NCBI RefSeq assembly: GCF_026008495.1
Contig: NZ_BQUN01000112.1
Span: forward strand, 1 to 64,000
Direction: 5' to 3'
Origin: Streptomyces sp. A012304
GTDB lineage: Bacteria; Actinomycetota; Actinomycetes; Streptomycetales; Streptomycetaceae
DNA length: 64,000 bases
A program made the position numbers and the translations under genes. The notes under the pieces were generated by a model. The model saw only the letters and a list, made by a program, of their open reading frames with translations, did not search any database and was not told the origin of the DNA. Shown here piece after piece: positions 46,001-64,000 of the stretch (the first letter of the stretch is position 1; each line of letters opens with the position of its first letter).

Positions 46001-46013
46001 TACAATAGGACCA
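46001..46013 (+). promoter_or_regulatory. -10 element of a probable leaderless transcript
   Basis: TACAAT at 46001-46006 is a good -10 box, and the GntR ATG lies seven bases after it, where transcription should start. The -35 region (TTTGGT, 45978-45983) is weak. No ribosome binding site precedes the ATG. Confidence 0.5.
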
Positions 46014-46720
46014 TGACGGAGGGGAACGGAAGCCAGGGCAAGGCGCGGCCGATGAGTGACAAGGCCTATGAGACGCTCCTCGAGGCCGTGGTGAGCTGCG
46101 AACTGGTACCGGGTGCATGGATCAAGGCGTCCGAGCTCTCGGAGTCGCTCGGCCTGGGCCGGACGCCGACGATGCAGGCGCTGCAGCGCCTGGAGGCGGC
46201 CGGGTTTGCCCGCCCGGTGAAGCGCAAGGGCTGGCAGGTGGCTCCGGTTACGCTGCAGAGCGTCCACGACATCCTCGAAGCCTTCGAGTTGACCGCCCCG
46301 GGGCTGGTGACGTTGGTCGTCCGCAATGCCACCGATGAGCAGATCGCCACGCTGGGGCAATTGGTGACGGCGTGGGCGCCGGGCCGGCCCCCGTCCGAAA
46401 CCATGCCTGACTTGAAAGCGGCCCCGATCCGTTACCTCGCCCACATCTGCGGAAATCCGATGATGACGGAAATGGCGCTTCCTTTGGCGACACATGTGGA
46501 GCGGGTTCTCAATTTCGGACTGCTGCAGGATAATTTCCTGGACTCCGCTTACGTCCGCTGGCGCAACGTCTTTTTGGAAGCCGCTGCGGCCCGTGATGAG
46601 AAACGTGCCCGGGAGGCGGTCCTCAAAGTGATCCACGTCGGCGGGGCGGAGGTCAACCGGATTCTTCAGGGTGCACAGTCCATCCGGTCGGTTCCCCTGC
46701 ACATCGAACGTGCCTCCTGA
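46013..46720 (+). CDS. GntR-family (FCD type) regulator of the aromatic island
   Basis: A 235-residue regulator. The winged helix reads KAYETLLEAVVSCELVPGAWIKASELSESLGLGRTPTMQALQRLEAAGFARPV (by key residues 17-68). The C-terminal helical FCD-like domain has FELTAPGLVTLVVRNAT and YLAHICGNPMM. It abuts the SDR gene tail to tail, the two stops sharing TGATCA. The gene and its leader are less GC-rich than the neighbours. It is the only regulator in the 46-64 kb catabolic island, hence its likely controller. An internal ATG at 46052 is an alternative start. Confidence 0.85.
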   Translation: MTEGNGSQGKARPMSDKAYETLLEAVVSCELVPGAWIKASELSESLGLGRTPTMQALQRLEAAGFARPVKRKGWQVAPVTLQSVHDILEAFELTAPGLVTLVVRNATDEQIATLGQLVTAWAPGRPPSETMPDLKAAPIRYLAHICGNPMMTEMALPLATHVERVLNFGLLQDNFLDSAYVRWRNVFLEAAAARDEKRAREAVLKVIHVGGAEVNRILQGAQSIRSVPLHIERAS

Positions 46721-47455
46721 TCAGATCGAGATCCCGCCGTCGACAGGCAGCACCACGCCGGTGACGTATCCCGCTTCGTGGGAGGCGAGGAAGCCCACCG
46801 CGGCGCACATCTCGGAGGCGTCGCCGAACCTGCCCAGCGGGATGCCAGAGGCCAGTTCGGCCTTCTTGTCCTCCGGGATGGAAGCGACCATCCGGGTCTC
46901 GGCGTTGGGCGAGATGGCGTTGACGGTGACTCCGAACCGGGCCAGTTCCTTGGCCGCGGTCCTGGTGAACCCGATGATGCCCGCCTTGGCGGTGGCGTAG
47001 TTCGCCTGACCGGTGTTGCCGTGCAGACCCGTGTACGAGGTGACGTTGACGACGCGGCCGTAACCCCGGGTGCGGAAGTGCGGAACGCAGGCGCGGGTCA
47101 GCCGGAAGGTGCCGCCGGCATGGATGGCCAGGACGCTCTCCCAGTCGTCGTCCGTGAGCTTCCACAGGACCTTGTCGCGCAGGATTCCGGCGTTGTTGAC
47201 GATGACGTCGATCCGGCCGGTCTCGGCGATGACCTGTTCGACGGCCTGCTCGATGTCCTCGGTGCTGCTGACGTCACCGGGGACGGCTCGTGCTCCGACC
47301 TCGGCCGCGGCCTTGCGGACTTCTTCGCGGTCGTAGTCGATGAGGAAGACGTCGGCACCGGAGCCCGCGAAGAATCGGCCGAGTTCGAGACCGATACCTC
47401 GGGCACCGCCGGTCACGATCACGGTCTGGCCGGTGAAGTCGAACGACAGGTTCAT
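46721..47455 (-). CDS. FabG-like short-chain dehydrogenase
   Basis: A 244-residue SDR with TGGARGIGLEL, NNAGILRD, catalytic Ser in VTSYTG, Tyr/Lys in YATAKAG, and the C-terminal YVTGVVLPVDGG. An Asp after beta-2 (LIDYDREE) favours NAD. It is typical of 3-hydroxyacyl-CoA or hydroxy-ring dehydrogenases. It is last in the leftward five-gene operon with the ligase, FAH-type hydrolase, small protein and flavin reductase, so it may oxidise a side-chain alcohol after CoA activation. Confidence 0.88.
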   Translation of the reverse strand: MNLSFDFTGQTVIVTGGARGIGLELGRFFAGSGADVFLIDYDREEVRKAAAEVGARAVPGDVSSTEDIEQAVEQVIAETGRIDVIVNNAGILRDKVLWKLTDDDWESVLAIHAGGTFRLTRACVPHFRTRGYGRVVNVTSYTGLHGNTGQANYATAKAGIIGFTRTAAKELARFGVTVNAISPNAETRMVASIPEDKKAELASGIPLGRFGDASEMCAAVGFLASHEAGYVTGVVLPVDGGISI

Positions 47456-47526
47456 CGCGAGTTCTCTCCTGGGACGGGGACTGCTTGTGGTTCGTGTGGT
47501 TCACCTTGCGCGTCGCTTCTCGATCC

Positions 47527-49170
47527 TCACCGCAGTTCGCGGCGCAGGATCTTGCCGGCCGGGTTCCTGGGCAGTTCGTCGACGATCTCGATGGCCCGGG
47601 GGTACTTGTACGCCGCCATCCGCTGCTTGCAGAACATGACGAGGGCGTCCGGAGTGGTCGCCCGGCCGGGCTGGAGGGACACGAACGCCTTGACCGTCTG
47701 CCCCCGGTACTCGTGGGCGACGCCGATCACCGCGGCCTCGCGGACGGCGGGGTGGCCGAGGAGGACGTCCTCCACCTCCCGGGGCCACACCTTGTAGCCG
47801 GAAGCGATGATCATGTCGCTCTTCCGTCCGACCAGGTAGAACCAACCGTCTTCGTCCATCATGCCTATGTCGCCGGTGTGCAGCTCGCCGTCGACGATCT
47901 TCTCCGCGGTCTCTGCCGGCTTGTTCCAGTAGCCGGGAGTGACCTGCGGACCGGAGACGACGAGCTCGCCGGTCTCGCCCGGCAGCAGTGGCGTTCCGTT
48001 GTCGTCGATGACACGCACGGACGTGTTGAAGACGGGGAGGCCGACCGACAGGGCGCCCGTCTCGGGGTCGACGGGTGCGTCCAGACCCAGCGGTACGGCG
48101 TGTGTCGGCGAGGTGGTCTCGGTCATCCCGTAGATGTTGTGGATGTTCATTCCGGTGCGGGCCAGGATCTTGTCGCGCAGCCGAGGCGCGATCGGGGCGC
48201 CGCCGGAGTAGACCGCCCGCAGAGACGCGAAGTCGTCCCTGGTCGCCCCGGGAAGCCCGGAGAGATGGTTGAAGACTGTGATGGCGCCGACGGTGAACGT
48301 CGGCCGGTGCTCGCGGATCGCGTCCAGGATGACGCTGCCCTCGAAACGGTGAGCGAGCACGAGCTTGGAGCCGATCACCAGACAGACGCAGACGTGCGCG
48401 ACGAGCCCGGTGATGTGAAACAGCGGAGCGACACCGAGAAGGACGTCGTCCTGGTTCAGTTTCATCCACTCGCGGTAGGTGTGGCTGTTGAACGCCAGGC
48501 CGCCATGGGTGTTGATCGCCGCCTTCGGCACGCCGGTGGTGCCGGAGGTGTAGGTCAGGACCGCCGTATCTTCGGCGTTCGCGCTGACCGGTGCCGGCGC
48601 GCGGTCACCGTATCGGGAGTACACGTCCGTCAGCCGTAGGGCCCCGGAGACCACGGGTTGCTCCGTGACGGGGATGACGCGTTCGTCGTCGCGCTCCTGG
48701 TCGTCGCGTACGGAGGCCACGAAGACCTGCCGCACCTCGGTCTGCCCGCCTTCGAGCACCTCACGGGCAACCGACACGTACAGATCGTCCAGGCTCAGCA
48801 GGGCCGTCGCGCCCGAGTCCCTGAGCAGGTGGGACAGTTCGCGCGCCTTGTTCATGGGGTTGACGAGAACCGCGATGCCACCGGCCTTCCAGGCCGCGAG
48901 GAGGCCGACCGCGAACGCCGGGTTGTTCTGGGTGTAGAGCGCGAGCCGGTCGCCGGCGGCGAAGCCGCCCTCCGTCAGGGCGACCGCCAGCGCGTCCGAG
49001 CGCTGGTCGAGGTCTCGGAAGGACAGGGCACCGTCGAAATAGGCGATCGCGGTTCTGTCGGGGAACTCGGAGACCGTGGTCGCGAACAGTTCGAGCATCG
49101 ACTCGGACTCGGGGGCGATCTGTCTCGGGAGATCACCGGGATACGTGTCCAGCCAGGGACGCCCGTTCAC
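47527..49170 (-). CDS. AMP-forming acyl-CoA ligase
   Basis: A 547-residue ANL-superfamily ligase: P-loop YTSGTTGVPKAA, YGMTETTSPTH, GELHTGDIGMMDEDGWFYLVGR and the acyl-adenylate Lys in PRNPAGKILRR. The hinge reads GRKSDMI. It would activate an aromatic or fatty acid to its CoA thioester. It starts at GTG 49170, overlapping the FAH-gene stop (GTGA); earlier in-frame sequence is Arg-rich and antisense-like. The substrate is unknown. Confidence 0.9.
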   Translation of the reverse strand: MNGRPWLDTYPGDLPRQIAPESESMLELFATTVSEFPDRTAIAYFDGALSFRDLDQRSDALAVALTEGGFAAGDRLALYTQNNPAFAVGLLAAWKAGGIAVLVNPMNKARELSHLLRDSGATALLSLDDLYVSVAREVLEGGQTEVRQVFVASVRDDQERDDERVIPVTEQPVVSGALRLTDVYSRYGDRAPAPVSANAEDTAVLTYTSGTTGVPKAAINTHGGLAFNSHTYREWMKLNQDDVLLGVAPLFHITGLVAHVCVCLVIGSKLVLAHRFEGSVILDAIREHRPTFTVGAITVFNHLSGLPGATRDDFASLRAVYSGGAPIAPRLRDKILARTGMNIHNIYGMTETTSPTHAVPLGLDAPVDPETGALSVGLPVFNTSVRVIDDNGTPLLPGETGELVVSGPQVTPGYWNKPAETAEKIVDGELHTGDIGMMDEDGWFYLVGRKSDMIIASGYKVWPREVEDVLLGHPAVREAAVIGVAHEYRGQTVKAFVSLQPGRATTPDALVMFCKQRMAAYKYPRAIEIVDELPRNPAGKILRRELR

Positions 49171-50036
49171 CGCCGGTCCTCCGGCGCCGCCACGACGTCG
49201 TTCCGGAGAACCCCGACGCCCGATACCTCGATCTCGGTCACGTCGCCGGGGACGAGGAGGCGCGGCGGCTTCGCGGTCAGTCCGATACCGCCGGGTGTCC
49301 CGGTGGCGATCACGTCGCCGGGGGCCAGGGTGGTGAACCCCGTGACGTACCCCAGAATGGCCGTGAAATCGAAGACGAGTCGGTCCAGTGTGGCGTCCTG
49401 CCGCAGCTCGCCGTTGACCCGTGTGGTCAGCCGTACCGATCCGAGGTCGTCGAACTCGTCCAGCGTGACCAGCCACGGACCGAAGGAACCGACGCCGCGG
49501 AAGTTCTTGCCGGGCAGCCACTGGCTGTTGTGCAGCTGCCAGTCCCGGACGCTCAGGTCGTTGTAGCAGGACAGACCCGCGATCGCCGCCCGTGCGTCGG
49601 CGTCCGTCTCGATCACCGACACATGACGGCCGATGACGATCGCGACCTCTCCTTCGTAGTCCAGCTGCCTGGTGTTCGGCGGATGCACGACGGGCTGTTC
49701 GTGACCGACCTGGGTGTCGGCGAACCGGCTGAAGATGGTCGGGTGTTCGGGCTTGTCGACGTGCCCGGTCTCCTCCCGGTGGTCGACGTAGTTGACGCCC
49801 ACACACAGGATCTTCGCCGGGTCCGGGACCGGCGGAAGGTACTCGATCTCGGCCAGCGAGTGGGTGGCCTCGCGGCCGGCGCTGAGTTGCCTGAGGCGGC
49901 CCGTGAGATCGCGTTCCAGGAGCTCCCGGATCGAGGTGGCCTCTCCGCCGAGTGCCTCGGCGCCGTCGATGACGCCGCCGGCCGCCAGGACGCCGAACGA
50001 CACCTTGTCGCCGATGCGGTACGTGAGCAGTTTCAT
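49167..50036 (-). CDS. fumarylacetoacetate hydrolase family protein
   Basis: A 289-residue FAH-fold protein. Metal ligands lie in LDYEGEVAIVIG (the E-x-E pair) and the later Asp of SVRDWQ. KILCVGVNYVDHREETG opens the catalytic domain, and PGDVIATGTPGGIGL closes it. It would hydrolyse a beta-diketo acid such as fumarylacetoacetate or an acylpyruvate. With the homogentisate dioxygenase of this island it could carry the final C-C cleavage. It is shorter than true FAH (about 420 residues), so a related diketo-acid substrate is more likely. Confidence 0.88.
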   Translation of the reverse strand: MKLLTYRIGDKVSFGVLAAGGVIDGAEALGGEATSIRELLERDLTGRLRQLSAGREATHSLAEIEYLPPVPDPAKILCVGVNYVDHREETGHVDKPEHPTIFSRFADTQVGHEQPVVHPPNTRQLDYEGEVAIVIGRHVSVIETDADARAAIAGLSCYNDLSVRDWQLHNSQWLPGKNFRGVGSFGPWLVTLDEFDDLGSVRLTTRVNGELRQDATLDRLVFDFTAILGYVTGFTTLAPGDVIATGTPGGIGLTAKPPRLLVPGDVTEIEVSGVGVLRNDVVAAPEDRR

Positions 50037-50048
50037 CGGTGCTTCTCC

Positions 50049-50285
50049 TCATGGATTCCTGGCCGGAAGCGAGCGGGACGAGTCACGCCGAGTCGCGGCC
50101 TGATCAGGCGCTCTTGCAATGCGCGCGGATGTGATCCGCGTCAATGTCCGCCCGAGCCCGTCCTCGACCGCGGCGCGCGACCGCGTCGCATCGAGGCCGA
50201 CGACATCGACGTGCAACCGGCCGAAGCCGTCGGAGTCCACCAGCGAGACCGGCCGGTCGGGGGCATCGGCGATACGGACGAACAT
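50049..50285 (-). CDS. 78-residue protein of unknown function
   Basis: A small gene with a strong AAGGAG eight bases before its ATG, set between the flavin reductase and FAH genes of the same operon. The N-terminal half reads MFVRIADAPDRPVSLVDSDG, then FGRLHVDVVGLDATRSRAAVEDG and looks like a compact alpha/beta unit. The C-terminal tail is basic and disordered. No family was recognised. The antisense frame is open but not protein-like. Confidence 0.7.
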   Translation of the reverse strand: MFVRIADAPDRPVSLVDSDGFGRLHVDVVGLDATRSRAAVEDGLGRTLTRITSARIARAPDQAATRRDSSRSLPARNP

Positions 50286-50382
50286 CTGCGGTTCTCCTTG
50301 CCCTGTGAGCCATGACGCGCCGGCCGCCGCGAGCGACGGGCCGAACGCCCGGTGAGGTTCACGGCGTTCAAGCCACGGGCGG

Positions 50383-50910
50383 TCAGGCGGCGCCCATGTA
50401 ACGGCGACGGTGGAACACCAGCGGTCTCTCTCCCGGTACCGCGTCGAGGTCGGCGACCTCACCGAGAACGATGAAGTGGTCCCCGGCCTCGTGCAGCGTC
50501 GTGATCCGGCAGTCGATCCACGCCGCCACTCCCTCCAGCACCGGGGAGCCGGTGGCCGGTGCCGGACGCCAGGACAGGCCGGCGAACTTGTCGGCGCCAC
50601 TCGTGGCGAACGCCTGGGAAACGTGTTGCTGGTTCACGGTCAGCACGTTCGCGCAGAAGGCGCCGGCCTGTCGTATACGTCGGAAGCTGCTCGACGTCGC
50701 CGCGGGCAGAAAGCCGACCAGGGGTGGATCCAGCGACACCGAGAGGAAGGTGCCGACGGCCAGCCCGACCGGCTCGCCGCGGTCCAAGGCGGTCACCACC
50801 ACAACGCTGGTGGGCACCGCGGAGAGGACGTCGCGGAAACGGGCGGCTTCCAGGGGTGCTTCGCTCCCGGAAGAGCGGCTCTCGGAGGCCGGTGATGATG
50901 TCCATGCCAT
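50383..50910 (-). CDS. flavin reductase (HpaC type)
   Basis: A 175-residue flavin reductase-like split-barrel protein: FRDVLSAVPTSVVVVTALDRG, GLAVGTFLSVSLDPPLVGFLPA, GAFCANVLTVNQQHVSQAFA and GDHFIVLGEVADL. It would supply FADH2 or FMNH2 to one of the island's two-component monooxygenases (the acyl-CoA-dehydrogenase-like one at 56353 or the luciferase-like one at 54144). AAGGA precedes the ATG at 50910. It is first in the leftward operon. Confidence 0.9.
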   Translation of the reverse strand: MAWTSSPASESRSSGSEAPLEAARFRDVLSAVPTSVVVVTALDRGEPVGLAVGTFLSVSLDPPLVGFLPAATSSSFRRIRQAGAFCANVLTVNQQHVSQAFATSGADKFAGLSWRPAPATGSPVLEGVAAWIDCRITTLHEAGDHFIVLGEVADLDAVPGERPLVFHRRRYMGAA

Positions 50911-51392
50911 CGTTGCAGTCCTTTTCGGTCAGGCGGGGGCCACGTCGTCGCAGAGAGTGCGCACGGCAGGCAGCACCTCAGCGGCGAACAGCTCCCAGGT
51001 AGGGCTGGTTGTACGACGGATCACTCAGCAGCGCACCTGCGGGTCGGGCATCACCACCGGACGCGTTCGGCGGCGCGGGCGATGCCCGGCTGACTCAGGC
51101 CGAGGTCGGCCCGGTGACGGGCGACGAATTCCATCGGGGATGGCGTCGGGGGTCATCACCACGCTGTACAACCTCCTCGGATCGGCTCTCGCCGACCGGA
51201 CCACCTGGACCGCGGCCATGCGCGAACCGTCCGGCGACGCCCTTGGGAAGCCAAGCCGAACGTAACATAGACATGTCTGTCTTGAAAATAAACATTTCTA
51301 TTGACGCTTGAGATGTTCCATGCTCCGATCAGAGGCACGGTTCAGTAGTGGTCCGCCGGATGCCCGCCCGCGCCGCCTGTTTGGAGAACACC
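50911..51392. promoter_or_regulatory. divergent control region of the aromatic island
   Basis: This 480-base gap separates the leftward and rightward operons. It contains a gene relic (50932-51000) and an AT-rich core near 51260-51305 with the perfect palindrome AGACATGTCT (51269-51278), a likely operator. TTGAAA (51282) and TTGACG (51301) are candidate -35 boxes without good -10 partners. Frames crossing the rest look antisense or random. Confidence 0.55.
50932..51000 (-). pseudogene. possible tail of a luciferase-like monooxygenase
   Basis: A short frame ending in a stop reads WELFAAEVLPAVRTLCDDVAP, typical of the last helix of LLM-class flavin oxidoreductases. Upstream the frame quickly meets stops, so only the end of a former gene remains. 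Confidence 0.4.
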
Positions 51393-51995
51393 ATGACCGA
51401 GTTCGATCCCGCCCGTACCGCTCTCATCAACATCCACTGGCAGTACGACATCGTGAAACCCGAGGGTGTCTTCGGACCGTTCTTCGCCGAGGGCGTCGAG
51501 CGGCACGGCCTGATCGCCAAGAACGCGCGGCTCAGGAAGGCGGCCCGAGCCGCAGGTGCCGCCGTGATCCACGTCCGGACGGCCTTCCGCCCCGGCTACA
51601 CCGATCTGATCGTCAACAGCCCTCTGCTGGCCCTGGTGGAGGAGCGCAAGGCCCTCGTCGAGGGAACACGTGGCGCCGAACTCATCGAGGAGCTCACGCC
51701 CGAGATCGGGGAGGTGGTCATCACCCATACCCGCCTCACCGGCTTCCACGGCACCGACCTCGACGGGATCCTGCGCGGCAGGGGCATCGACACCGTCGTC
51801 TTCTCCGGCGTCGCCACCGACCACGCCGTCCAGGGCACCGCCCGCGAGGCGGTCAACCACGGCTACCGCACCCTCATCGTCTCCGACGCGTGCTCGACGA
51901 CCAACGACGAGGCGCACCAGGCCGCCCTGGACACCTTCACGCTGCTGGGCGAGATCGTCACCACCGAAGACGTCGTGGCCGCCTTCTCCCGATGA
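51393..51995 (+). CDS. isochorismatase-fold protein lacking the catalytic triad
   Basis: A 200-residue member of the isochorismatase/cysteine-hydrolase fold by overall pattern: TALINIHWQ, VIHVRTAFRPGY, THTRLTGFHGTDLDGILRGRGID, FSGVATDHAVQGTAREAVNHGY. The catalytic Asp (IDMQ in relatives) is His15, the Lys is His112, and the nucleophilic Cys (GVATxxCV) is Ala145. Phenazine-type isochorismatases lack Cys but keep Asp and Lys; here all three are gone. It may be a binding protein, or use its histidines differently. GGAG lies six bases before ATG 51393. It is first in the rightward operon. Confidence 0.85.
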   Translation: MTEFDPARTALINIHWQYDIVKPEGVFGPFFAEGVERHGLIAKNARLRKAARAAGAAVIHVRTAFRPGYTDLIVNSPLLALVEERKALVEGTRGAELIEELTPEIGEVVITHTRLTGFHGTDLDGILRGRGIDTVVFSGVATDHAVQGTAREAVNHGYRTLIVSDACSTTNDEAHQAALDTFTLLGEIVTTEDVVAAFSR

Positions 51996-52037
51996 GCCGC
52001 GCACACCACGAGAACACCAAGACGGAGGAGTAGGCCG

Positions 52038-52898
52038 ATGTCGCCCATCACACCGCGGACCCGCATGCAGTACGTCCGCCCCTTCGACCCGGACCAGGCC
52101 ATCGACACGGGATTCCCCGGCTACCGCGCCCAGTTCCTCTCCCATCTGGAGAGCACGATCCTGATCAACAGCCGCATCGAGGAGGGCGGTTGTGGCCCCG
52201 GCCTGCACTACCACCACGTCGATCAGCTGTACTACCTGGTCGAGGGAACCATGAACGTCCAGCTGGGGCACGAGGTCCAGCACATCGACGCCGGCACCCT
52301 CGTGTTCATCCCCGCGGGGCTGGCACACCGCAACTGGAACGACGGGCCGGGCGCCGAGACCCACTTCGAGATGCTGATCCCCGCTCCCGGGCCGATGGCC
52401 CAGCTGGCGTACATGGTGGACTCTCCCGACGACGTACCGGCCTCCCACCGCACCGACCACCCCGGGTACACCCAGCGCGTCGATCCCGACACCCTGGACG
52501 AGCCGATGCCGGGTCTCAAGATGGTCGCTCTGGCCGGCCCCGCGACCGGCGCGCGGCACTCCGTCGTCAACTACATGGAGGTCGCCCCGGGTGGGGCGGG
52601 TCCGGGCACCCACATCCACGCCTTCGACCAGTACTACCTGGTGCTGGAGGGGGAACTGACCGTCGAGGTCGCACTGGAGAAGCATGTCGTGGGCCCCCGC
52701 ACGCTGGTGGTGCTGCCCGCCGGCGTGCCGCACCGGCAGTACAACGCGGGCACGGTGACAGAGAAGCACCTGGCGGTCCTCTCACCCGCGCCCGAGCCGG
52801 TGAAGCCCTGGGACAGCGGTGTGGACTTCAGCGCCAATGGCGACGACGCCACCGGCCCGCAGTCCGTCTTCGAGCAGATCGGAGCGGGGCGGTCATGA
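52038..52898 (+). CDS. bicupin protein
   Basis: A 286-residue protein with two cupin folds. Each has the His-x-His motif followed by Gln where Glu is usual: GLHYHHVDQLYYLVEG with PAGLAHRNW, and THIHAFDQYYLVLEG with PAGVPHRQY. It could be a metal-dependent dioxygenase, isomerase or sensor. The shared Gln substitution suggests one conserved altered metal site. Its stop overlaps the next start (ATGA). Its exact function is unknown. Confidence 0.85.
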   Translation: MSPITPRTRMQYVRPFDPDQAIDTGFPGYRAQFLSHLESTILINSRIEEGGCGPGLHYHHVDQLYYLVEGTMNVQLGHEVQHIDAGTLVFIPAGLAHRNWNDGPGAETHFEMLIPAPGPMAQLAYMVDSPDDVPASHRTDHPGYTQRVDPDTLDEPMPGLKMVALAGPATGARHSVVNYMEVAPGGAGPGTHIHAFDQYYLVLEGELTVEVALEKHVVGPRTLVVLPAGVPHRQYNAGTVTEKHLAVLSPAPEPVKPWDSGVDFSANGDDATGPQSVFEQIGAGRS

Positions 52899-54112
52899 CC
52901 GATCTGCATGGTGGTTACCGACCGCGCCCGGAGCAACTGGCATTGAAGCGGGGCGCGGTGGACTTCTCCGACGACGCCGGTGTGGCCGCCATCATGAAGC
53001 TCGTCGGGGACGCGGAGCTGCCGCCGGTGGCGGAGACCGCCGCTGAGCCCTTCGTGGGGATCACGACCGACGGGCAGCCCCTGACCGACCTCTTCACCCT
53101 GGCCGACGAGGGTGCCCCGACCGAGCGGGCGGTGCGCGAGGCGCTGGGTTATCTGGGCCGGCTCACGGCAGCGCAACAGGCGCTCGGCGTGCTGCCGGTC
53201 GACGCCACCGAATGGCGGCTGTGGTCCAACGCGTTTCTGACGTTCCCCGAACACGGCCTGCTGTTGCAGGAGTTGCCCGGGCCAGTGCGTGAGTCGGCGC
53301 TGTCGGTGATCGAAGCCACCATCAGCCCCGAAGGTTACGAGCTGCTGCGTCAGGCGATGCGTCTCAACGCCGAACTGGGGGAACTGGTCGGCAGGTACCC
53401 GGACACACTCACCGAGTACTGCTACCGGTTCACCCTGTTCGGCGAGCCGTCGCTCGAACAGCCGTGGGGCTGGCAACTGGCGGGGCACCACATCGATCTG
53501 CACGCGCTCTTCATCGGCGGCCAGTTGGTGCTCACACCCACCTTCCTCGGCGTGGAGTTCGGCGGTGAGGCCGTGTTCGCCGACCAACGCGAGCGGGCCC
53601 GGGAGTTCATGGAGTCCCTGAGCGCGCCACAGCGCGACCGGGCCCTGCTGTACGGCTCGATGCTGTCCGCGGACCTTCCCCCCGAACTGTCCGGCATCGT
53701 CGACGGCCGCCACCGCACGGCAGCGGGCCGGGACAACCGCGTGCTCCCGTACGTGGGGCTGGCGGGCGACCGGCTGACGCCGGGTCAGCGAGAGCTGCTG
53801 TTGTCGCTCACGGACCCCTATCTGGAGGCGCTGCCCCCACAGCCTCGTGCGCACCGCCGGAACCAGATCGAGCGCTTCCTCGACGACACCCACCTGGGGT
53901 GGATCGGGACGTGGGAACCCGGCGCGCCCTTCTACTACCGGGTGCACAGTCCGGTCGTGCTCATCGAGTACGACAACCACGCCGGCATCTTCCTCGACAA
54001 CGACGAGCCGGAGCCGTACCACGTGCACACCATCGTGCGCACCCCCAACGGCGGCGACTACGGCAAGGACCTGCTGCGGCAGCACTACGCACACCAGCAC
54101 CCGCACACGTGA
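52895..54112 (+). CDS. DUF3500 family protein
   Basis: A 405-residue protein matching the DUF3500 pattern. The C-terminal half has GWQLAGHHIDLHALFIGGQLV, TPTFLGVEFGGEAVF, YYRVHSPVVLIEYDNHAGIFL and PYHVHTIVRTPNGGDYGKDLL. Clustered His and acidic residues (GHHIDLH, EYDNHAG, YHVHTI) look like a metal-binding hydrolase or oxygenase centre, but no function is established for the family that I know of. There is no signal peptide. It is coupled to the bicupin and placed before the LLM oxygenase, so a catabolic role is likely. Confidence 0.8.
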   Translation: MTDLHGGYRPRPEQLALKRGAVDFSDDAGVAAIMKLVGDAELPPVAETAAEPFVGITTDGQPLTDLFTLADEGAPTERAVREALGYLGRLTAAQQALGVLPVDATEWRLWSNAFLTFPEHGLLLQELPGPVRESALSVIEATISPEGYELLRQAMRLNAELGELVGRYPDTLTEYCYRFTLFGEPSLEQPWGWQLAGHHIDLHALFIGGQLVLTPTFLGVEFGGEAVFADQRERAREFMESLSAPQRDRALLYGSMLSADLPPELSGIVDGRHRTAAGRDNRVLPYVGLAGDRLTPGQRELLLSLTDPYLEALPPQPRAHRRNQIERFLDDTHLGWIGTWEPGAPFYYRVHSPVVLIEYDNHAGIFLDNDEPEPYHVHTIVRTPNGGDYGKDLLRQHYAHQHPHT

Positions 54113-56352: not shown

Positions 56353-57561
56353 ATGACCACCATTTCCGATGTGCCCGGCGTGACCGGCACCGACTCCGCC
56401 GCCGGCCGCGACCGGCTGCTCGCCGCCCTGGACGCGGCCGCCGCCGAGCTCCAGGTCGAAGGCCCGGCCTGCGATGAAGCGGGCATGCTCACGGACCGCA
56501 CGATGGAGTTGCTGCGAGACATCGGCATGGGCTGGATGTATGTCAGCAAGGACCTGGGCGGCCTGGACTTGGGAGCTGGCGACTCAGCCGTGGTCTTCGA
56601 ACGCATCGCCTACATCGACGGGCCGATCGGCTGGACAGGGGGAATCTTCGCGGGCGTCGGCCTGCTCGCGGCGCTCTTCGAGAAGTCCGCCGCGAAAGCA
56701 CTCCTGGCCGACGGGGCGCCGAACTGTTCCGCGACCGCCTACCCCAGCGGACGCGCCGTGCGGGTCGAGGGCGGCTACCGGCTCACCGCGTCCTACTCGT
56801 ACTGCAGCGGACTTCCGAACGCCGACTACGTGTTCTGCAACTCCCTGGTCTTCGACGGCGACCAGCCCGTCCCCGGTCCTCCGCTCATGTTTCTCGTACC
56901 GGCCTCGGCGGCCACCCTCCAGGGCAACTGGGACACGATGGGGCTCCGCGGCACCGGCTCCGTCGACTTCACCGTCACCGACTACTTCGTTCCGGATCAC
57001 CACGCCGTCTCGCTGTTCCCCCCGCCGGGGACGTCCGGGCTCGCCGCAGCCGGCTTGCTGGTAGCGGTTCACCTCGGGCGCCAGGCGTGGGCGTCCGGCA
57101 CCACCCGTCGACTCCTCGACGAGATCGCCGCCCACGCGAGCCGTGAGCCCAGGCCCGGGGCGACCCGGCTCGCGGACAACCCGGTCTTCCGCACCGAATA
57201 CGCGGACTTCGAACTGGCGTACCGCTCCGCTCGTGCACTCGGGGCCGAAGTCTTCGCCGAGATCGACGCCACGGTGGCACGTGGGGAGCCCCTCAGCCGT
57301 CGGCAGAACACTCTGCTCGCCGGCGCCAGCGTGCACATGCACGACATCTGCCGCGATGTCGCCGTGTGGGCGTTCAACAAGGCGGGAGGCACCGCACTGC
57401 GCGCCGGAACGCTTCAGCGTGTCGTCCGCGACGCCCTCTCCGGGTGTCAGCACGCGGTGGCCGGCCGCAGCCTGCTGCCGGACATCGGTCATGAGCTCGT
57501 CGGTGCGCCGCCGGAGCTGCAGTGGATCGGAACGACACTGGGTGCGCTTCCCGGGAAGTGA
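56353..57561 (+). CDS. acyl-CoA-dehydrogenase-fold flavin monooxygenase
   Basis: A 402-residue protein with the acyl-CoA dehydrogenase fold but features of the group D flavin monooxygenases (HsaA, HpaB-C2 type): no CoA-binding C-terminal Glu motif, GGYRLTASYSYCSGLPNADYVFC in the middle domain, GNWDTMGLRGTGSVDFTVTDYFVP, and HMHDICRDVAVWAFNKAGGTALRAG at the end (by key residues). FADH2 from the reductase at 50383 would allow hydroxylation of an aromatic ring. A true acyl-CoA dehydrogenase is the alternative. GAGG lies upstream of ATG 56353. Confidence 0.8.
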   Translation: MTTISDVPGVTGTDSAAGRDRLLAALDAAAAELQVEGPACDEAGMLTDRTMELLRDIGMGWMYVSKDLGGLDLGAGDSAVVFERIAYIDGPIGWTGGIFAGVGLLAALFEKSAAKALLADGAPNCSATAYPSGRAVRVEGGYRLTASYSYCSGLPNADYVFCNSLVFDGDQPVPGPPLMFLVPASAATLQGNWDTMGLRGTGSVDFTVTDYFVPDHHAVSLFPPPGTSGLAAAGLLVAVHLGRQAWASGTTRRLLDEIAAHASREPRPGATRLADNPVFRTEYADFELAYRSARALGAEVFAEIDATVARGEPLSRRQNTLLAGASVHMHDICRDVAVWAFNKAGGTALRAGTLQRVVRDALSGCQHAVAGRSLLPDIGHELVGAPPELQWIGTTLGALPGK

Positions 57562-57674: not shown

Positions 57675-58496
57675 TCACAGAGTGACGAGGGTGGCGTCCG
57701 AAGGGAGCTGGAAATCCGATCCGCGAGCGAGGAAGTCCGCGACCAAAGCGGCCAGATCCTCGGCGCGGTCGCCCTGCACGTCGTGCGCCGCGTCGTGAAG
57801 AAGGACGAAGCTGCAGTCGGGCATGAGGCGGACGAAAGTGCGTCCGTTCTGGGGTGGTATGAAACCGTCCTTGTCGCCGAACACCACCAGCGTGCGAACG
57901 GAACTCTCAGGCAGGCGATCGGCGATCTTCTGCGAGTAGTCGGGGTCCGCCTGCGCGAGCCTGGAGATCAACGCGAACATCCGAGCCTGGGACTCGGGGG
58001 GACCCGGCTCGAAGACCGGTGGCCGCTCGGGGTGAACGCGAACCTTGCGCAGGGCTTCCTCGGGGGTGACGTCCACCTGTGAGGTGTCGGCACCTTCGCG
58101 GAAGGTGCCGGGTGCCTCGAGGACCAGTGAGGCCACCCGTTCCGGGTGATCGAGGGCGACGTTCAGGGCGATGTCGCCGCCGAGCGCGCTTCCGAGCAGG
58201 TGGAAGCTCTTCAGCCCGAGGTCCTGGGTCGCCTGGTAGACGGTGACGGCCAGGTCGGTGAGTGTCTGATCGCGGCCGTCGTCGGGCTCGTCGCCCCATC
58301 CGGGCAGCGCGAACAGGATGACGTCGTACGTCTCGGCGAGCCGGTCCAGCATGGGGGAGAAGCGGAAGCCCGCGGCGCTGTGGATGACGACGAGGGTGTC
58401 GCCCTCGCCGGCGCGGAAGTACCGGATGGTGTGGCCGTCGGCTTGGGCGACGCCTTCGGTGAAGGCGGCGCCGTACTGTGCGGATGCGGATGTCAT
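57675..58496 (-). CDS. alpha/beta-hydrolase-fold protein with Ala at the nucleophile position
   Basis: A 273-residue alpha/beta hydrolase fold protein: HSAAGFRFSPMLDRLAETYDV, LFALPGWGDEPDDG, then the elbow LLGSALGGDIAL. In the G-x-Nu-x-G elbow the nucleophile is Ala104 instead of Ser; the residue before it is Ser103. The Asp (FGDKDGFIPP) and His (HDAAHDVQGD) of the triad remain. It may therefore be inactive, act as a binder, or use another mechanism. It is the last gene of the leftward homogentisate operon. Confidence 0.85.
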   Translation of the reverse strand: MTSASAQYGAAFTEGVAQADGHTIRYFRAGEGDTLVVIHSAAGFRFSPMLDRLAETYDVILFALPGWGDEPDDGRDQTLTDLAVTVYQATQDLGLKSFHLLGSALGGDIALNVALDHPERVASLVLEAPGTFREGADTSQVDVTPEEALRKVRVHPERPPVFEPGPPESQARMFALISRLAQADPDYSQKIADRLPESSVRTLVVFGDKDGFIPPQNGRTFVRLMPDCSFVLLHDAAHDVQGDRAEDLAALVADFLARGSDFQLPSDATLVTL

Positions 58497-58553: not shown

Positions 58554-58586
58554 CTTCCGGCCCGCCAGGCAGACGTGGGCCGGAAG
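58554..58586 (-). terminator. intra-operon hairpin after hmgA
   Basis: CTTCCGGCCC (58554-58563) and GGGCCGGAAG (58577-58586) are perfect 10-bp arms with a 13-base loop, between the hmgA stop and the hydrolase start. There is no T-run; it may limit read-through. Confidence 0.55.
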
Positions 58587-58604
58587 ACGTGTCGTACGGC
58601 GGTG

Positions 58605-59942
58605 TCAGCCCTGGAAGTGGCGCTCGATGCCGTTCCAGACCCCGTCGTAGTCCTCCTGAAGCGTCGGCAGGGTGAGGGCCGCGGCGGTCGGGATGACGGG
58701 CAGTCGGGTCTCGAACAGGAACGTGAGACCGTTGTCGATCTTGCGTGGCTCGAGCTCCGTCGTGCTGGCGGTCTCGTAGGTCTCGCGGTCGGGGCCGTGC
58801 GAGGCGAAGCAGTTGTGCAGGCTGGCGCCGCCCGGGAGGAAGCCTTCGGCCTTCGCGTCGTAGGTGCCGTGCACGAGCCCCACGAACTCGCTCATGACGT
58901 TGCGGTGGAACCACGGCGGACGGAAGGTGTTCTCGGCGACGAGCCAGCGGTCCGGGAAGATCGCGAAGTCGGCGTTCGCCGTACCGGGGATACCGCTGGG
59001 CGAGGTCAGCACGGTGTAGATCGACGGGTCCGGATGGTCGAACGAGATCGTGCCGATCACCATGAAGTTGCTCAGGTCGTACTTGTAGGGCGCGAGGCTG
59101 CCGTGCCAGCCGACGACGTCGAGCGGGGAGTGGTCGTAGTCGGCGACCCACAGGTTGCCGAGGTACTTGTTGAAGACCCGCACCTCCTCGTCCCGGTCCT
59201 CGAAGGCCGCCGTCGGGTACCGGAAGTCCCGGTGGTTGGCCAGGCCGTTGGCACCGATCGGGCCGAGCTCGGGCAGCCTGAAGATCTGGCCGTAGTTCTC
59301 CAGGACGTACCCACGAGCCACACCGTCGGGCAGCTCCACCTTGAAGCGGAGGCCGCGCGGGAGGACGAGGATCTCGCCGGGGGAGACGGCGAGGACGCCG
59401 AGTTCCGTGGCGACGCGCAGACCGCCCTGCTGCGGGACGATGAGCATCTCGCCGTCGCTGTTGACGAAGTACTCGCGGTCCATCGACCGGGCCGCGGCGT
59501 ACATGTGGATGGCGACGCCCGACTGCGCGCGCACATCGCCGTTGCCGCCGAGGGTGAACAGCGACTCGACGAACGTCTTCGGCTCGGCCGGGAACTCGTA
59601 GGGATCCCAGCGCAGGCGATTGGGGGAAGGGGCGGCGTTCGCGATCGGGCTCGCGGTCAGGCCGCCGGCGTCGACCTGGCGGAACGGGGAGTGCTTGGCG
59701 GAGGGCCGGATGCGGTAGACCCAGGTACGCAGGTTGTCCTGGCGCGGTGCCGTGAACGCGGTGCCGCTCAGCTGCTCGGCGTAGAGGCCCAGCGGTGCCT
59801 TCTGCGGGCTGTTGCGGCCCTGCGGAAGGGCCCCTGGGACGGCTTCGGTGACGTGCTGGTTGCCGAAACCCGAGAGATACGCGAGGTCGCGGGTGGACGC
59901 CGGTCCGCTCATGTCGGTGAGTGATGTGTCAACAGTGGTCAT
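58605..59942 (-). CDS. hmgA: homogentisate 1,2-dioxygenase
   Basis: A 445-residue Fe(II) dioxygenase that opens homogentisate to maleylacetoacetate. It carries the family signatures: [26 protein letters not shown] (by key residues), [14 protein letters not shown], and the iron site with His and Glu in [14 protein letters not shown] and His in NCFASHGPD. The length equals that of authentic HmgA. It lies between thiolase and hydrolase genes on the minus strand, not beside maiA or fahA, so its use is tied to this island rather than ordinary tyrosine breakdown; a second copy elsewhere is possible. The preceding stop is 36 bases upstream. Confidence 0.95.
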
Positions 59943-59977
59943 GATGCCTCCATGAGATGTGGGGGCCTGGGACGGCC

Positions 59978-61165
59978 TCAGGTCGACTCCAGGACGCTGA
60001 CGTAGTTGGCCACCGCGAGCCCGCCCATGTTGTGCACGGCGGCGCGACGGGCGCCCGGCAGCTGCATGTCACCGGCGGTGCCGGACAGTTGCATCGCGGC
60101 CATCACATGCTGGGAGACCCCGGTGGCGCCGACCGGGTGGCCCTTGCTCTTCAACCCGCCGGAGAGGTTCACCGGCAGGCTGCCGCCCCGGAAGACGGTG
60201 CCCTCGTCGAGAGCGGCACGGCCCTTCCCACGCGGTGCGATCCCGAGCACCTCGTACATCACCAGCTCGGCGATCGTGAAGCAGTCGTGCAGCTCGATCA
60301 GGTCGAGGTCACCGAGTTCCACGCCGGCCATGTCTTTCGCGCGGTTCCAGGCGGCGGCGCTGCCGGCGAACTCGACCGGGTCGCGTTTGCCGGCGGGCAG
60401 GAAGTCGTTCGCCTGGCCGAAGCCGATGAGCCGCACCGGGCTCTGGGCCGCGCTGCCGCTCGGCTCGGTCGCCAGGACGAGGGCGGCGGCGCCGTCGGAG
60501 ACCGGCGAGCAGTCGGTGCGCCGCAACGGACCGGCGACGACGGGGTTCTTGGGCGAGGTCGTGGCGCAGAACTCGGGGGTGAGCTCCTTGTGGAGGTGAG
60601 CCCACGGATTGGCCAGACCGTTGCGGTGGTTCTTCGCGGCGATCTGCCCCAGAACGTCGTCCAGGGCGCCGTAGCGCTGCTGGTAGGCCTTGGCGACGTT
60701 GGCGAACAGCCCGGCGAAACCGGTACGGGACTCCTGGCCGGCGAGTTCGTAGTCGGCCCCGAGCAGGGCGGCGCCGACCTGCTCCGCCGGGGCGTGGGAC
60801 ATCTTCTCGGCGCCGATCACCAGGACGGTCCGAGCGGTGCCGGCGAGCAGGGACCTGACGCCGCCGTGGACGGCGGCCGAGCCGGAGGCGCAGGCGTTCT
60901 CGACCCGGGTCGCGGGTACGCCGAACAGGTCGTCGGAGATCTGGAGGGCGAGGGAAGAGGCGAAAGCGAGGGGCCAGAGGCCCGAGTTGAACTGGCCGAA
61001 CCAGATCTCGTCGACGTCTCCGGCGTCGATGCCCGCGGAGACGATCGCGTCACGGGCGACGGCGACGACGAGGTCCTCGAGCGACTGGTCACGCAATGCG
61101 CCGAACCGCGTGTGACCCCAACCGGAGATGACGATGTCGGTTCCGAAGGTCTTGGCGAGAGTCAT
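59978..61165 (-). CDS. SCP-x-like thiolase
   Basis: A 395-residue thiolase-fold enzyme: [20 protein letters not shown], acyl Cys in [29 protein letters not shown], His in [14 protein letters not shown], and a C-terminal [18 protein letters not shown] with no second Cys, as in SCP-x/acetyl-CoA acetyltransferase-like types. ATG 61165 overlaps the subunit B stop. With the CoA-transferase pair it could cleave acetoacetyl-CoA or a longer 3-ketoacyl-CoA. Confidence 0.88.
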
Positions 61166-61818
61166 CAGGCAGCCGCCTCGTACGCGGAGCCGACGGTGAA
61201 CTCGGCCTCGGTGACATCGCGGAGGTCGTCGACCGTCACCCCGCGTGCGGTCCGGGCCAGCAGCAGGCCACCCTCGACGACGTCGAAGACGGCGAGGTCG
61301 GTGACGACACGATCGACGACGCCGACACCGGTCAGCGGGAGGGTGCACTCGCGGACGATCTTGGGGGATCCGTCCTTGGCGAGGTGCGTCGTCAGGACGA
61401 CCACGCGGCGAGCCCCGGCGACCAGATCCATGGCTCCGCCCATGCCCTTGACGACGGATCCCGGGATGCTCCAGTTGGCGAGGTCTCCGGAGCCCGACAC
61501 CTGCATGGCGCCCAGGATCGTGAGGTCGACGTGTCCGCCGCGGATCATCGCGAAGGAGGCGGCCGAGTCGAAGACGCTGCCGCCGGGCAGCACGGTGACG
61601 GTCTGCTTGCCCGCGTTGATCAGGTCGGCGTCCTCGTCCCCTTCGTAGGGGAACGGGCCCATGCCCAGCAGGCCGTTCTCGCTCTGGAGGGTGACCTTCA
61701 CACCGTCGGGGAGGTGGTTGGCGACCAGGGTGGGGATGCCGATGCCGAGGTTGACATAGGCGCCGTCTCTCAGTTCGGAGGCGGCGATGGCGGCCATCTC
61801 GTCACGCGACCATGCCAT
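61165..61818 (-). CDS. 3-oxoacid CoA-transferase subunit B
   Basis: A 217-residue beta subunit. The catalytic Glu47 is in [11 protein letters not shown], after [44 protein letters not shown] and [22 protein letters not shown] follow. Genomic coupling with homogentisate dioxygenase suggests use on acetoacetate (SCOT-like, from fumarylacetoacetate cleavage). It is paralogous to pcaJ at 37575. Confidence 0.88.
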
Positions 61819-61878
61819 GACAGCTCCTTTTCTTCATGTCCGCTTCCTCACGTCCTCTTCTTCATGGGCGCCACGTGC

Positions 61879-62592
61879 TCAGGCGGACGTCTCGGTCCGC
61901 TGCCGCGTGGTGCGCTGCTCGATGTGCTTGAACCGGCTCGACGTCCGTACGACGCGTTGGACGTAGATGCTCGGCGTGACGACGTGGTCGGGATGGATCT
62001 CGCCCTCGTCGACAACCTCGTCGACCTCGGCCACGGTGACCCGGCCGGCCGTGGCGACGACCGGGTTGAAGTTGCGGGCGGTGTAGCGGTAGACGAGGTT
62101 GCCGGTGGTGTCCGCGCGGTGGGCGCGCACCAGCGCGAGGTCGGCGACCAGGCCGCGTTCGAGCACGTACTCGACTCCGTCGAAGACCTCGGTCTTCTTG
62201 CCCTCCGCGACCTTGGTACCCACTCCCGTGCGGGTGTAGAAGGCGGGGATCCCGGCTCCGCCCGCCCGGAGCCGTTCGGCCAGGGTGCCCTGCGGGTTGA
62301 ATTCCACGTCGAGCACTCCGTCGAGGTACTGCTGCGCGAAGAGCTTGTTCTCGCCCACGTACGAGGCGATGACCTTGCTGACCTGGCCGCCCTCGATGAG
62401 GACGCCGAGGCCTATCCCGTCCACCCCCATGTTGTTGGAGATGACGGTGAGATCGCGGACGCCCGATGCGCGGACCGCCGCGATCAGGTCGTCGGGGATG
62501 CCGCTCAGGCCGAACCCGCCTACGGCCAGGGTCATCCCGTCGGACAGCAGATCGTGCAGCGCCTCGGTGGCGGTGGGGTGAATGACAGCCAT
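61879..62592 (-). CDS. 3-oxoacid CoA-transferase subunit A
   Basis: A 237-residue alpha subunit: MTLAVGGFGLSGIPDDLIAAV, LTVISNNMGVDGIGLGVLIEGG, DVEFNPQGTLAERLRAGGAGI, FYTRTGVGTKVAEGK and YRYTARNFNPVVATA. ATG 62592 has GAAAGGA six bases upstream; a GTG at 62607 would add five residues. It forms the enzyme with subunit B, 60 bases downstream. It is closer to SCOT alpha (YVGENKLF, FNPQGTLAERLRAGG) than the pcaI copy. Confidence 0.88.
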   Translation of the reverse strand: MAVIHPTATEALHDLLSDGMTLAVGGFGLSGIPDDLIAAVRASGVRDLTVISNNMGVDGIGLGVLIEGGQVSKVIASYVGENKLFAQQYLDGVLDVEFNPQGTLAERLRAGGAGIPAFYTRTGVGTKVAEGKKTEVFDGVEYVLERGLVADLALVRAHRADTTGNLVYRYTARNFNPVVATAGRVTVAEVDEVVDEGEIHPDHVVTPSIYVQRVVRTSSRFKHIEQRTTRQRTETSA

Positions 62593-62709
62593 GTCGGTTC
62601 CTTTCACGGCCGGTTCGTCGGCACAGCGGGTCGGGAACGGGGGAGTGGGGATCGGGAGACGCCCAAGGGGGCCGGGCGCGGTCGCGTGTCGACGCGGTGC
62701 GCGGAGCGC

Positions 62710-64000
62710 TCAGTGGCGCTCGGCGACCGGCTCGGAGGCGAGCACCTCTCCCCGCAGGCACAGCTCCTCCAGGAGTCCGAGGACCGTGCTGTGAGAGGTC
62801 GCCGTGCCGTAGACGTAACGGTCCGGCCGGACGACCGCCCACGAGATTCCCAGCCGGGAGGCCCAGTCCACGAGGGTGCCGTCGAGGTCGACCACGTCCG
62901 CCACCGCCGCGTCCCCGTTCCTGGTCGCCGTACGGCTGTTCCCGCGAGTGGTCGATCTCCTGACGACCACCTGTCGGGCCCCGAGTGCTCGGCACACGCT
63001 CTCCAGGAGGGGACCGGAGTCGTCGCCCGCGCCGGCCCCGGACTCGTCGTTCTCGATGCTCACGACGGCGAACCAGTCGCCCAGTACCTCGTCGAGGCGG
63101 ACCCGGTCACCGCTCGCGTCCCTCACCCACGGCTGAGGGAACTGGGCGCCGGCCGCCACGTTCGGCGGCGACGCGATCAGTCCAGCTGACAGCGGCGGTA
63201 TGACCTGCTGCCGAGTGGGGTCCGGACGCAGTCGGCGTTCCTCGCGGAGCCGGGTGTCCCGAGCCGAGGCGCGGTCGGGATCGAGCTCGCCGATGATCTT
63301 TCCGAACTCCTTGGCGAGCCCGACGACCTCGCCCACGTGCGGACGCATCTCGGCCTGGTAGGTGTCCAACACGTCTTCCGGCCAGCCGCGCTTGGCGACG
63401 GCGTCGAGTTTCCAGGCGAGTCCGGTCGCGTCCCGGATCCCGGCGCACATGCCCTGTCCGAGAAAGGGCGGCATCTGATGAGCCGCGTCACCGGCGAGCA
63501 GGATGCGTCCGCGTCGCCAGCTGTCGACGACGAGAGCGTGGAACCGGTAGACGGCGACCCGTGCGATCTCGAGAGCGTCGACATCGACGAAATGGGACAG
63601 GACCCTTCTCAGTACCGCGTGGTCTTTGAAGTCCTGCGGGTCTTCCGACGGGAGCACCTTGATCTCCCAGCGCCTGAGCGAGCCCGGTCCGATGATGAAG
63701 GTCCCCGGACGGGAGGGCTGGCAGTACTGCGTGGCCCTGGGCGGAAGCTCGGTGTCGGCGATCAGGTTGGCGTCGACGATCACCCACCACTCGTCGAAGT
63801 CGAGATCGGTGATCGTGGGTTCGACGAGTGAGCGGGTCCGGCTCCTCGCGCCGTCGCAGCCGACCAGGAACTCCGCCTCGACGTGTTCCGTCTCTCCGTC
63901 GCGCTCCAGGACGACCACGACGGAGTCCGTGTTCTCGGCCGCGTCGACGAGCGAGGTCCCCAGTCGTTGTTCGACGTTCCCGTAGCGCTCCAGCTCCCGC
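62710..64000 (-). CDS. MhpA-type FAD aromatic hydroxylase, cut by the window edge
   Basis: The C-terminal 430 or so residues of a class A flavoprotein monooxygenase; the frame is open to the right edge (RELERYGNVEQRLGT at the break), so the N-terminal GxGxxG FAD motif lies outside. Visible are FLVGCDGARSRTRSLV (the DG motif) and GRILLAGDAAHQMPPFLGQGMCAGIRDATGLAWKLD (the GD motif; by key residues), then a thioredoxin-like C-terminal domain ending in SEPVAERH. It matches the family of 3-(3-hydroxyphenyl)propionate hydroxylase. It should hydroxylate a phenolic acid to a diol and begins the homogentisate operon. Confidence 0.9.
   Translation of the reverse strand, partial: RELERYGNVEQRLGTSLVDAAENTDSVVVVLERDGETEHVEAEFLVGCDGARSRTRSLVEPTITDLDFDEWWVIVDANLIADTELPPRATQYCQPSRPGTFIIGPGSLRRWEIKVLPSEDPQDFKDHAVLRRVLSHFVDVDALEIARVAVYRFHALVVDSWRRGRILLAGDAAHQMPPFLGQGMCAGIRDATGLAWKLDAVAKRGWPEDVLDTYQAEMRPHVGEVVGLAKEFGKIIGELDPDRASARDTRLREERRLRPDPTRQQVIPPLSAGLIASPPNVAAGAQFPQPWVRDASGDRVRLDEVLGDWFAVVSIENDESGAGAGDDSGPLLESVCRALGARQVVVRRSTTRGNSRTATRNGDAAVADVVDLDGTLVDWASRLGISWAVVRPDRYVYGTATSHSTVLGLLEELCLRGEVLASEPVAERH

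Follow-up and report, generated by a model that had tools for sequence, protein, structure and literature searches.

The right-hand end of a 64,000-nucleotide stretch of Streptomyces sp. A012304 DNA (the window; bases 1-64000 of contig C111, NZ_BQUN01000112.1, in a genome of 9.66 Mb) carries an accessory aromatic-catabolic island, described here from position 46,013 onward, that continues past the window edge, up to about C111:82411. The island comprises two adjacent modules: module 1 is an operon containing a homogentisate 1,2-dioxygenase gene (hmgA), and module 2 is a larger set of genes around a protein of the DUF3500 family (PF12006), which is still of unknown function in Pfam. On balance, we consider the full two-module explanation developed below to be probable. 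The HmgA half is of a known kind, and DUF3500 is the main question. We tentatively propose, as a reading somewhat less likely than not, that DUF3500 proteins represent a new structural class among metal-dependent enzymes, opening tri- and tetrahydroxybenzene rings, and that a bacterial line of hydroxylase, DUF3500 and fumarylacetoacetate hydrolase (FAH)-family enzyme completes degradation of the flavonoid phloroglucinol (A) ring. The order in Arthrobacter-type clusters would be quercetin dioxygenase, esterase, flavin adenine dinucleotide (FAD) hydroxylase, DUF3500 and FAH, and three DUF3500/FAH sets would lie beside the homogentisate operon of the island.

DUF3500 neighbourhoods, structure and possible role

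DUF3500 loci were surveyed across bacteria using one genome per species. The 79 loci were taken from the best-scoring 80 of at least 585 confirmed and are nearest relatives rather than a random sample; flanks of up to 10 kb per side, some shortened by contig ends and totaling 1.38 Mb, were searched using tblastn at E ≤ 1e-10. An FAH-type match was found in 25 of the 79 loci, an MhpA-type FAD hydroxylase in 17, and both in 11. At the density of the window's genome, approximately 2.7 FAH genes would be expected in 1.38 Mb, although this density may not hold for other phyla. Other island genes were matched at fewer loci (HsaA type, 6; bicupin, coenzyme A (CoA) ligase and luciferase-like flavin-dependent monooxygenase (LLM), 5 each; ScoAB and thiolase, 1 each), and HmgA was not matched within the flanks of any of the 79.

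A quercetin 2,3-dioxygenase match occurred in nine of the loci. In eight of these, all Arthrobacter-type, an FAH gene and an FAD hydroxylase precede DUF3500, an esterase of the alpha/beta-hydrolase type lies upstream, and the quercetin 2,3-dioxygenase is convergent just downstream. In the Pseudarthrobacter locus (L081; FAH at 7265-8119, FAD hydroxylase at 8122-9867 and DUF3500 at 9848-11086), the dioxygenase matches 2h0v at E 8.3e-62. In the ninth, from Microbacterium sp. STN6, the match lies approximately 9 kb away. Quercetin dioxygenase releases a depside, hydrolysis of which yields 2,4,6-trihydroxybenzoate. The hydroxylase could then convert 2,4,6-trihydroxybenzoate to 1,2,3,5-tetrahydroxybenzene, and DUF3500 together with FAH would finish the ring. 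As an observation in its own right, L081:4212-12242 and the seven similar Arthrobacter-type loci may each represent a flavonol-degradation cluster with esterases, FAH, FAD hydroxylase, DUF3500 and quercetin 2,3-dioxygenase.

A ring-opening role has been suggested for the family in fungi. According to the accessible part of a 2025 review (PMC12388069), the DUF3500 protein AN10530 of Aspergillus nidulans is proposed as a putative dioxygenase that opens 1,2,3,5-tetrahydroxybenzene. The occurrence of quercetin dioxygenase, esterase and FAD hydroxylase near DUF3500 fits this proposal, and the bacterial gene context independently supports a ring-opening role. In comparing the island with the fungal pathway as outlined in that part of the review, the DUF3500 family is common to both by name, FAD hydroxylases are found near DUF3500 in the 17 bacterial loci mentioned above, and the island differs in being bacterial and in possessing FAH-family hydrolases and a bicupin.

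The first island copy, DUF3500a (52895..54112, plus strand; PF12006, 278.5 bits, cut-off 27.2), yielded a confident predicted model (mean pLDDT 93.1, pTM 0.92). Its sole clear match in the PDB was 9x86 (Foldseek E 1.1e-16; VIA Z 21.3, 246 aligned residues, 30% identity). The next structural rows, CMD1 among them, scored Z 4.0 or less and were too weak for use, so no relation to other oxygenase folds is drawn. One alignment of 79 rows (the window copy plus 78 loci, with L108 omitted because its reading frame runs through a stop) and another of 18 rows both show residues H198, H199, E221, H376 and H378 without exception. The pattern by which the sequences were fetched itself contains H198 and H199, and the other three lie outside it. 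The GHH, E and HxH positions are thus invariant in the aligned rows and are candidate metal ligands.

Several results weigh against the proposed role. The only solved DUF3500 relative found, 9x86 (ApmL/Amc20), is titled 'dehydratase ApmL in Amipurimycin biosynthesis'; it shares the fold, the GHH and the HxH with DUF3500a and has Asn opposite E221 in the alignment. ApmL was not mentioned in any of the open-access papers listed for it. Eight of the 25 FAH-bearing loci are closely related Arthrobacter-type ones, and the expected FAH density was taken from a single genome. A Pfam tally of 108 of the 141 immediate DUF3500 neighbors contained just two FAH proteins and six FAD hydroxylases. This tally omitted 33 neighbors by hand, of which 14 were from seven Arthrobacter-type loci (seven of the 14 being the upstream FAD hydroxylase) and 19 were others; its control comprised 108 hand-picked genes out of 208 distant ones, and the gene caller had overlooked DUF3500 itself in loci L051 and L055. 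The signal was weak (FAD_binding_3, 6 versus 2 in the control; TctC, 8 versus 4), with FCD (7) and Cupin_2 (5) also present among the neighbors and neither among the first 25 families of the control. The weak tally counts against a uniform hydroxylase-DUF3500-FAH arrangement.

One alternative is that DUF3500 acts after ring cleavage, as a dehydratase, hydrolase or isomerase, and that ring opening in module 2 falls to the bicupin or to another enzyme. Because of the dehydratase title of 9x86 and an operon of Thioclava, in which DUF3500 runs in the same direction as FAH, hpaH and an HpcH/HpaI aldolase and a gene annotated hpaD lies divergent nearby, we give this alternative appreciable weight while still doubting it overall; the bicupin is also a conserved neighbor of DUF3500. 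It is opposed by the ring-opening proposal for the A. nidulans protein (as it stands in the accessible part of PMC12388069) and by E221, invariant in all 79 rows where 9x86 has Asn. In addition, seven scanned genes of the Pseudarthrobacter locus include no ring-cleaving enzyme beyond quercetin dioxygenase, although nine further called genes there were unscanned.

DUF3500 also occurs elsewhere within the genus, with matches at 48% identity in one genome and at 47% on a Streptomyces aurantiacus contig. Two arrangements from outside the genus were noted separately. On a plasmid of Paraburkholderia sprentiae (L034:9033-19135), DUF3500 is flanked by two FAH genes, followed by a cupin and, at a greater distance, an FAD oxidoreductase, a maleylacetate reductase and a ring-cleavage dioxygenase. 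In Rhodococcus qingshengii RL1, the accessible part of PMC8416521 gives one run of locus tags for an MhpA-type hydroxylase, an MFS transporter, HTH and FCD regulators and a DUF3500 protein, a further DUF3500-hydroxylase pairing.

Separation of the two modules

A preliminary description of this DNA had placed HmgA at the hub of one novel pathway. We rejected a single hub at HmgA as the principal explanation, given the lack of HmgA in the flanks of the 79 DUF3500 loci and the arrangement in a second Streptomyces genome, G869. Recurrence of the island was judged via its MhpA-type hydroxylase and therefore covers genomes with a close MhpA: at E ≤ 1e-90, 4 of 392 genus genomes (including its own) had a match, one of them close (G869, 89% identity) and the other two at 41%. 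In G869, 16 of the 17 island genes of the window are conserved at 79-96% identity, as are the FAH64 hydrolase (81%) and an IclR regulator (93%) that lie beyond the window. The module 1 operon is present there in the same order (81-96% identity). In G869, a stretch of 7.5 kb that is absent here separates HmgA from the alpha/beta hydrolase of module 2; it encodes an RraA-like protein, two HpcH/HpaI proteins, a short FAH, a short DUF3500 (177 aa as called), a GntR/FCD regulator, an aldehyde dehydrogenase and one protein without a Pfam match. This stretch marks the border between the modules.

Module 2 genes also travel in other company. A plasmid of R. qingshengii CS98 carries DUF3500 (58% identity), bicupin (66%), CoA ligase (58%) and SDR/FabG-type reductase (84%) genes together, in a cluster that also contains a thiolase, a MaoC dehydratase and a crotonase, with no HmgA within the 33 kb examined. 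The bicupin-DUF3500 pair is conserved in Prauserella (67% and 68%). Based upon the DUF3500-locus survey, the Rhodococcus plasmid and the Prauserella pair, module 2 is a unit of its own. The oddities of the gene set (DUF3500, bicupin, LLM and CoA ligase) are part of this separate module, which is found elsewhere in the absence of HmgA. It was observed separately that the SDR, at 84%, stands apart from its neighbors in the Rhodococcus cluster (58-66%; SDR at L030:12725-13453) and that the corresponding site in G869 is too small to hold it; judging from these sequences, the SDR seems to have moved independently of its neighbors.

A different reading would make the whole island one linear pathway for a larger natural product, such as an isoflavonoid or stilbenoid, in which module 2 opens a polyhydroxylated ring and splits the molecule and module 1 consumes the hydroxyphenylacetate released. 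The modules are adjacent in both genomes known to carry them, DUF3500 keeps company with quercetin dioxygenase in the nine loci above, and genes that by eye resemble plant-polysaccharide and pca-type ones lie within the same window. These points are outweighed by the DUF3500 loci and the Rhodococcus plasmid stretch, where module 2 genes occur without HmgA in the sequence searched, by the separate regulators of the modules, and by the 7.5 kb between the blocks in G869; nor was an Arthrobacter-type quercetinase found in this genome, in a search run without a positive control. We therefore regard a single linear pathway as unlikely. Under the two-module explanation, a single plant compound may still feed both modules.

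The homogentisate operon

Module 1 is a minus-strand operon in the order FAH64-MhpA-ScoA-ScoB-thiolase-HmgA, with successive gaps of -4, 102, 60, -4 and 35 bases. At its head, outside of the window, the gene for the FAH64 hydrolase (C111:64338-65225) overlaps by 4 bases that of an MhpA/MhaA-type FAD hydroxylase (62710..64000 within the window and complete to C111:64341; 543 aa), which at full length clears the PRK06183.1-3 subfamily cut-off (NF004829, 480.4 bits versus 390). Next are subunits A (ScoA, 61879..62607; TIGR02429, 250.3 bits, cut-off 128.5) and B (ScoB, 61165..61818; TIGR02428, 326.5 bits, cut-off 243.55) of a 3-oxoacid CoA-transferase (SCOT), both above their subfamily cut-offs, and a thiolase (59978..61168; NF005704, 594.5 bits, cut-off 412) that is probably an acetoacetyl-CoA thiolase. 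HmgA (58605..59942; TIGR01015, 663.1 bits, cut-off 510.75) completes the operon and is the second copy in the genome. Alignment to 3zds (P. putida) and 1ey2 (human) revealed that it retains the metal and substrate segments, including the His residues in HRN, SLH and HGPD, the Glu after that of HRN and the Tyr preceding AK, residues that we take to be catalytic. Equivalog score and residues together indicate that the island HmgA is a true homogentisate 1,2-dioxygenase.

In the route that we envisage, the flavoprotein would convert a phenylacetate-type phenol, presumably 3- or 4-hydroxyphenylacetate, to homogentisate, the ring of which HmgA would open to maleylacetoacetate. FAH64 would then produce fumarate or maleate plus acetoacetate, with isomerization occurring spontaneously, being carried out by an unrelated enzyme, or being skipped, and ScoAB and the thiolase would turn acetoacetate into two acetyl-CoA. 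The nearest characterized system is mhaAB-hmgABC, which the accessible part of PMC3053370 describes as a route from 3-hydroxyphenylacetate to homogentisate in Pseudomonas putida U and Burkholderia xenovorans LB400; there, an LB400 flavoprotein once annotated as MhpA is proposed to be MhaA, a 3-hydroxyphenylacetate 6-hydroxylase, and adjoins hmgABC. Likened by that description rather than by sequence, both systems have an MhpA/MhaA-type flavoprotein (MhaA being about 560 aa and deposited for P. putida U as AAY16572) beside HmgA and a fumarylacetoacetate hydrolase. The island differs in lacking an MhaB-sized (60 aa) gene in the operon and any HmgC/maiA found in the genome, in its type of FAH, in having SCOT and thiolase built in, and in that its substrate is a presumed one. 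Module 1 is thus a known route, mha/hmg, in a compact variant that also provides for acetoacetate disposal.

Some findings are at odds with the hydroxyphenylacetate assignment. No MhaB-sized gene fits the gaps of the operon, the largest of which from FAH64 to HmgA is 102 bases (the operon being the part of the genome searched). The nearest FAH64 relative found (64%, on a Variovorax plasmid) lies outside any homogentisate cluster. For MhpA, 65 plasmid records matched at E ≤ 1e-60, and in the three examined (Rhodococcus erythropolis BG43, Massilia and Bosea) its relatives, at 40-47% identity, adjoin VOC-family proteins and FAH genes without HmgA. Since its relatives sit in such VOC/FAH clusters, the assignment rests on the operon and not on the enzyme.

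All of the genes named in the preliminary description were recovered using Pfam and NCBIfam, and its line from ring cleavage to acetyl-CoA proved coherent, a plant phenolic being the probable substrate. The tyrosine route is encoded elsewhere: 4-hydroxyphenylpyruvate dioxygenase (HPPD) on C95, another hmgA on C63 and fumarylacetoacetase on C37. HPPD exceeds its cut-off solely on C95 and is not linked to the island hmgA. The same description had recognized no known pathway. This does not apply to the HmgA operon, in view of the mha/hmg route. No description of the gene set was encountered in the titles and abstract starts of the open-access papers listed on hydroxyphenylacetate hydroxylases, isoflavone clusters, tetrahydroxybenzene cleavage and Streptomyces homogentisate clusters. 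A homogentisate-like diol, which had been suggested as the intermediate, is not needed because HmgA retains the catalytic residues of true homogentisate dioxygenases. That no isomerase was in view is correct and uninformative: a genome-wide TIGR01262 search gave no match to a glutathione S-transferase (GST)-type maiA (no search was aimed at a mycothiol-dependent isomerase), so its absence does not set the island apart and was rejected as a special feature. In 14 control genomes, the same search gave matches in three, above the cut-off in one. Also considered and not favored was an HmgA homologue of changed specificity, such as MhdA, named in the accessible part of PMC12388069 as a methoxyhydroquinone dioxygenase; the catalytic segments are intact and acetoacetate enzymes are present in the operon.

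Module 1 was likely acquired from outside the genus, as suggested by the tree position of HmgA and the distribution of FAH64. The island HmgA is 62% identical to the C63 product. Of 394 genomes sampled across the class, 45 had an HmgA match at E ≤ 1e-100, and none of the 39 other genus members in this group had more than one at that limit. A quick tree of 37 rows grouped the island HmgA with proteobacterial rows and with actinobacterial rows other than Streptomyces (SH-aLRT 96), outside the Streptomyces rows (98), although it forms a long branch whose exact position is unsure. FAH64 had no match at E ≤ 1e-40 among 395 other genomes of the phylum; in a plasmid collection there were 106 matching records, mostly proteobacterial among the matches listed, and an FAH64-family protein (44%) lies beside hppD and maiA in Legionella adelaidensis. 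It is improbable that module 1 just duplicates the tyrosine/homogentisate pathway and that MhpA has an unrelated function: HmgA, FAH, SCOT and thiolase by themselves do form an ordinary homogentisate line, but the island is without HPPD, and the 4-base overlap of MhpA with FAH64 at the operon head lies in an order conserved in G869.

Remaining island genes and genome setting

At the left of the region described, a GntR/FCD regulator (46013..46720, plus strand; Pfam GntR and FCD; 79% in G869) probably controls module 2. On the minus strand follow the SDR/FabG-type reductase (46721..47455; 84% in the R. qingshengii CS98 DUF3500 cluster), an AMP-binding CoA ligase (47527..49170; Pfam; 58% in CS98 and 89% in G869), and FAH49 (49167..50036; PF01557, 204 bits), an FAH-family hydrolase/decarboxylase placed by its PDB neighbors on the HpaG/acylpyruvase side, whose stop overlaps the start of the CoA ligase. 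An HsaB-like flavin reductase (50383..50910, minus strand; NF045630, 174.5 bits, below the cut-off of 230) completes this block. Genes on the plus strand encode an isochorismatase-fold protein without the catalytic Cys (51348..51995; PF00857), the bicupin (52038..52898; Pfam; HxH...Q in both domains), DUF3500a, the LLM (54144..55208; PF00296, 195.6 bits), a quinone-reductase-like oxidoreductase (55231..56115; PF08240 and PF13602) and an HsaA-like reduced-flavin monooxygenase of acyl-CoA dehydrogenase fold (56353..57561; 95.4 bits versus an equivalog cut-off of 450). The sequence GVATDHAVQ of the isochorismatase-fold protein has Ala at what we take, from the usual Cys motif, to be the place of the nucleophilic Cys. 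A PcaD/HsaD-like alpha/beta hydrolase (57675..58496, minus strand) stays with module 2 in G869. The likeness of the island to HsaAB two-component flavin monooxygenases consists of an HsaA-like oxygenase together with an HsaB-like reductase, and both are below the respective equivalog cut-offs. The oxygenases of module 2 (LLM, HsaA type and flavin reductase), with the CoA ligase, SDR, quinone reductase and alpha/beta hydrolase, would oxygenate a second aromatic unit, which DUF3500 and FAH49 would then open and cleave.

Extension of the sequence to the right, which had been proposed as a check, completed MhpA, added FAH64 and revealed further FAH genes and two more DUF3500 genes, up to about C111:82411. 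From a scan of ten proteins, the order to the right of FAH64 is IclR and GntR regulators, an acyl-CoA dehydrogenase, an amidohydrolase, another IclR, DUF3500b (C111:71988-73337), a CaiB-type CoA-transferase, FAH75 and an enoyl-CoA hydratase; beyond these lie an SDR, a second enoyl-CoA hydratase and a GntR regulator (by eye), then FAH79 and DUF3500c (C111:81167-82411). Two extra DUF3500/FAH sets are therefore present to the right of the window. A degraded DUF3500 fragment with an internal stop (C111:68983-69204; 57% identity to DUF3500a over 74 residues) appears to be the trace of a duplication within the island. Every DUF3500 match in the genome (three whole, one fragment; query DUF3500a, E ≤ 0.001) falls on the island, and 4 of the 19 genomic FAH-family matches lie inside 31 kb, where 0.06 would be expected; this clustering is not by chance.

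The island portion inside the window has a G+C content of 66-70%. Approximately 8 kb to its left, a thiolase, CoA-transferase subunits and a LysR-type regulator (34728-38264) resemble by eye the end segment of the beta-ketoadipate (pca) pathway. Genes that, again by eye, resemble those for glycoside hydrolases and ricin-type-repeat proteins (plant polysaccharide degradation) lie at 29000-43600.

Conclusions

With the homogentisate operon set apart, DUF3500 gains a concrete, testable candidate role in bacteria. If this role is true, it would provide a step that opens the flavonoid phloroglucinol ring and would link the proposal made for fungi to flavonol-degrading gene clusters of bacteria.

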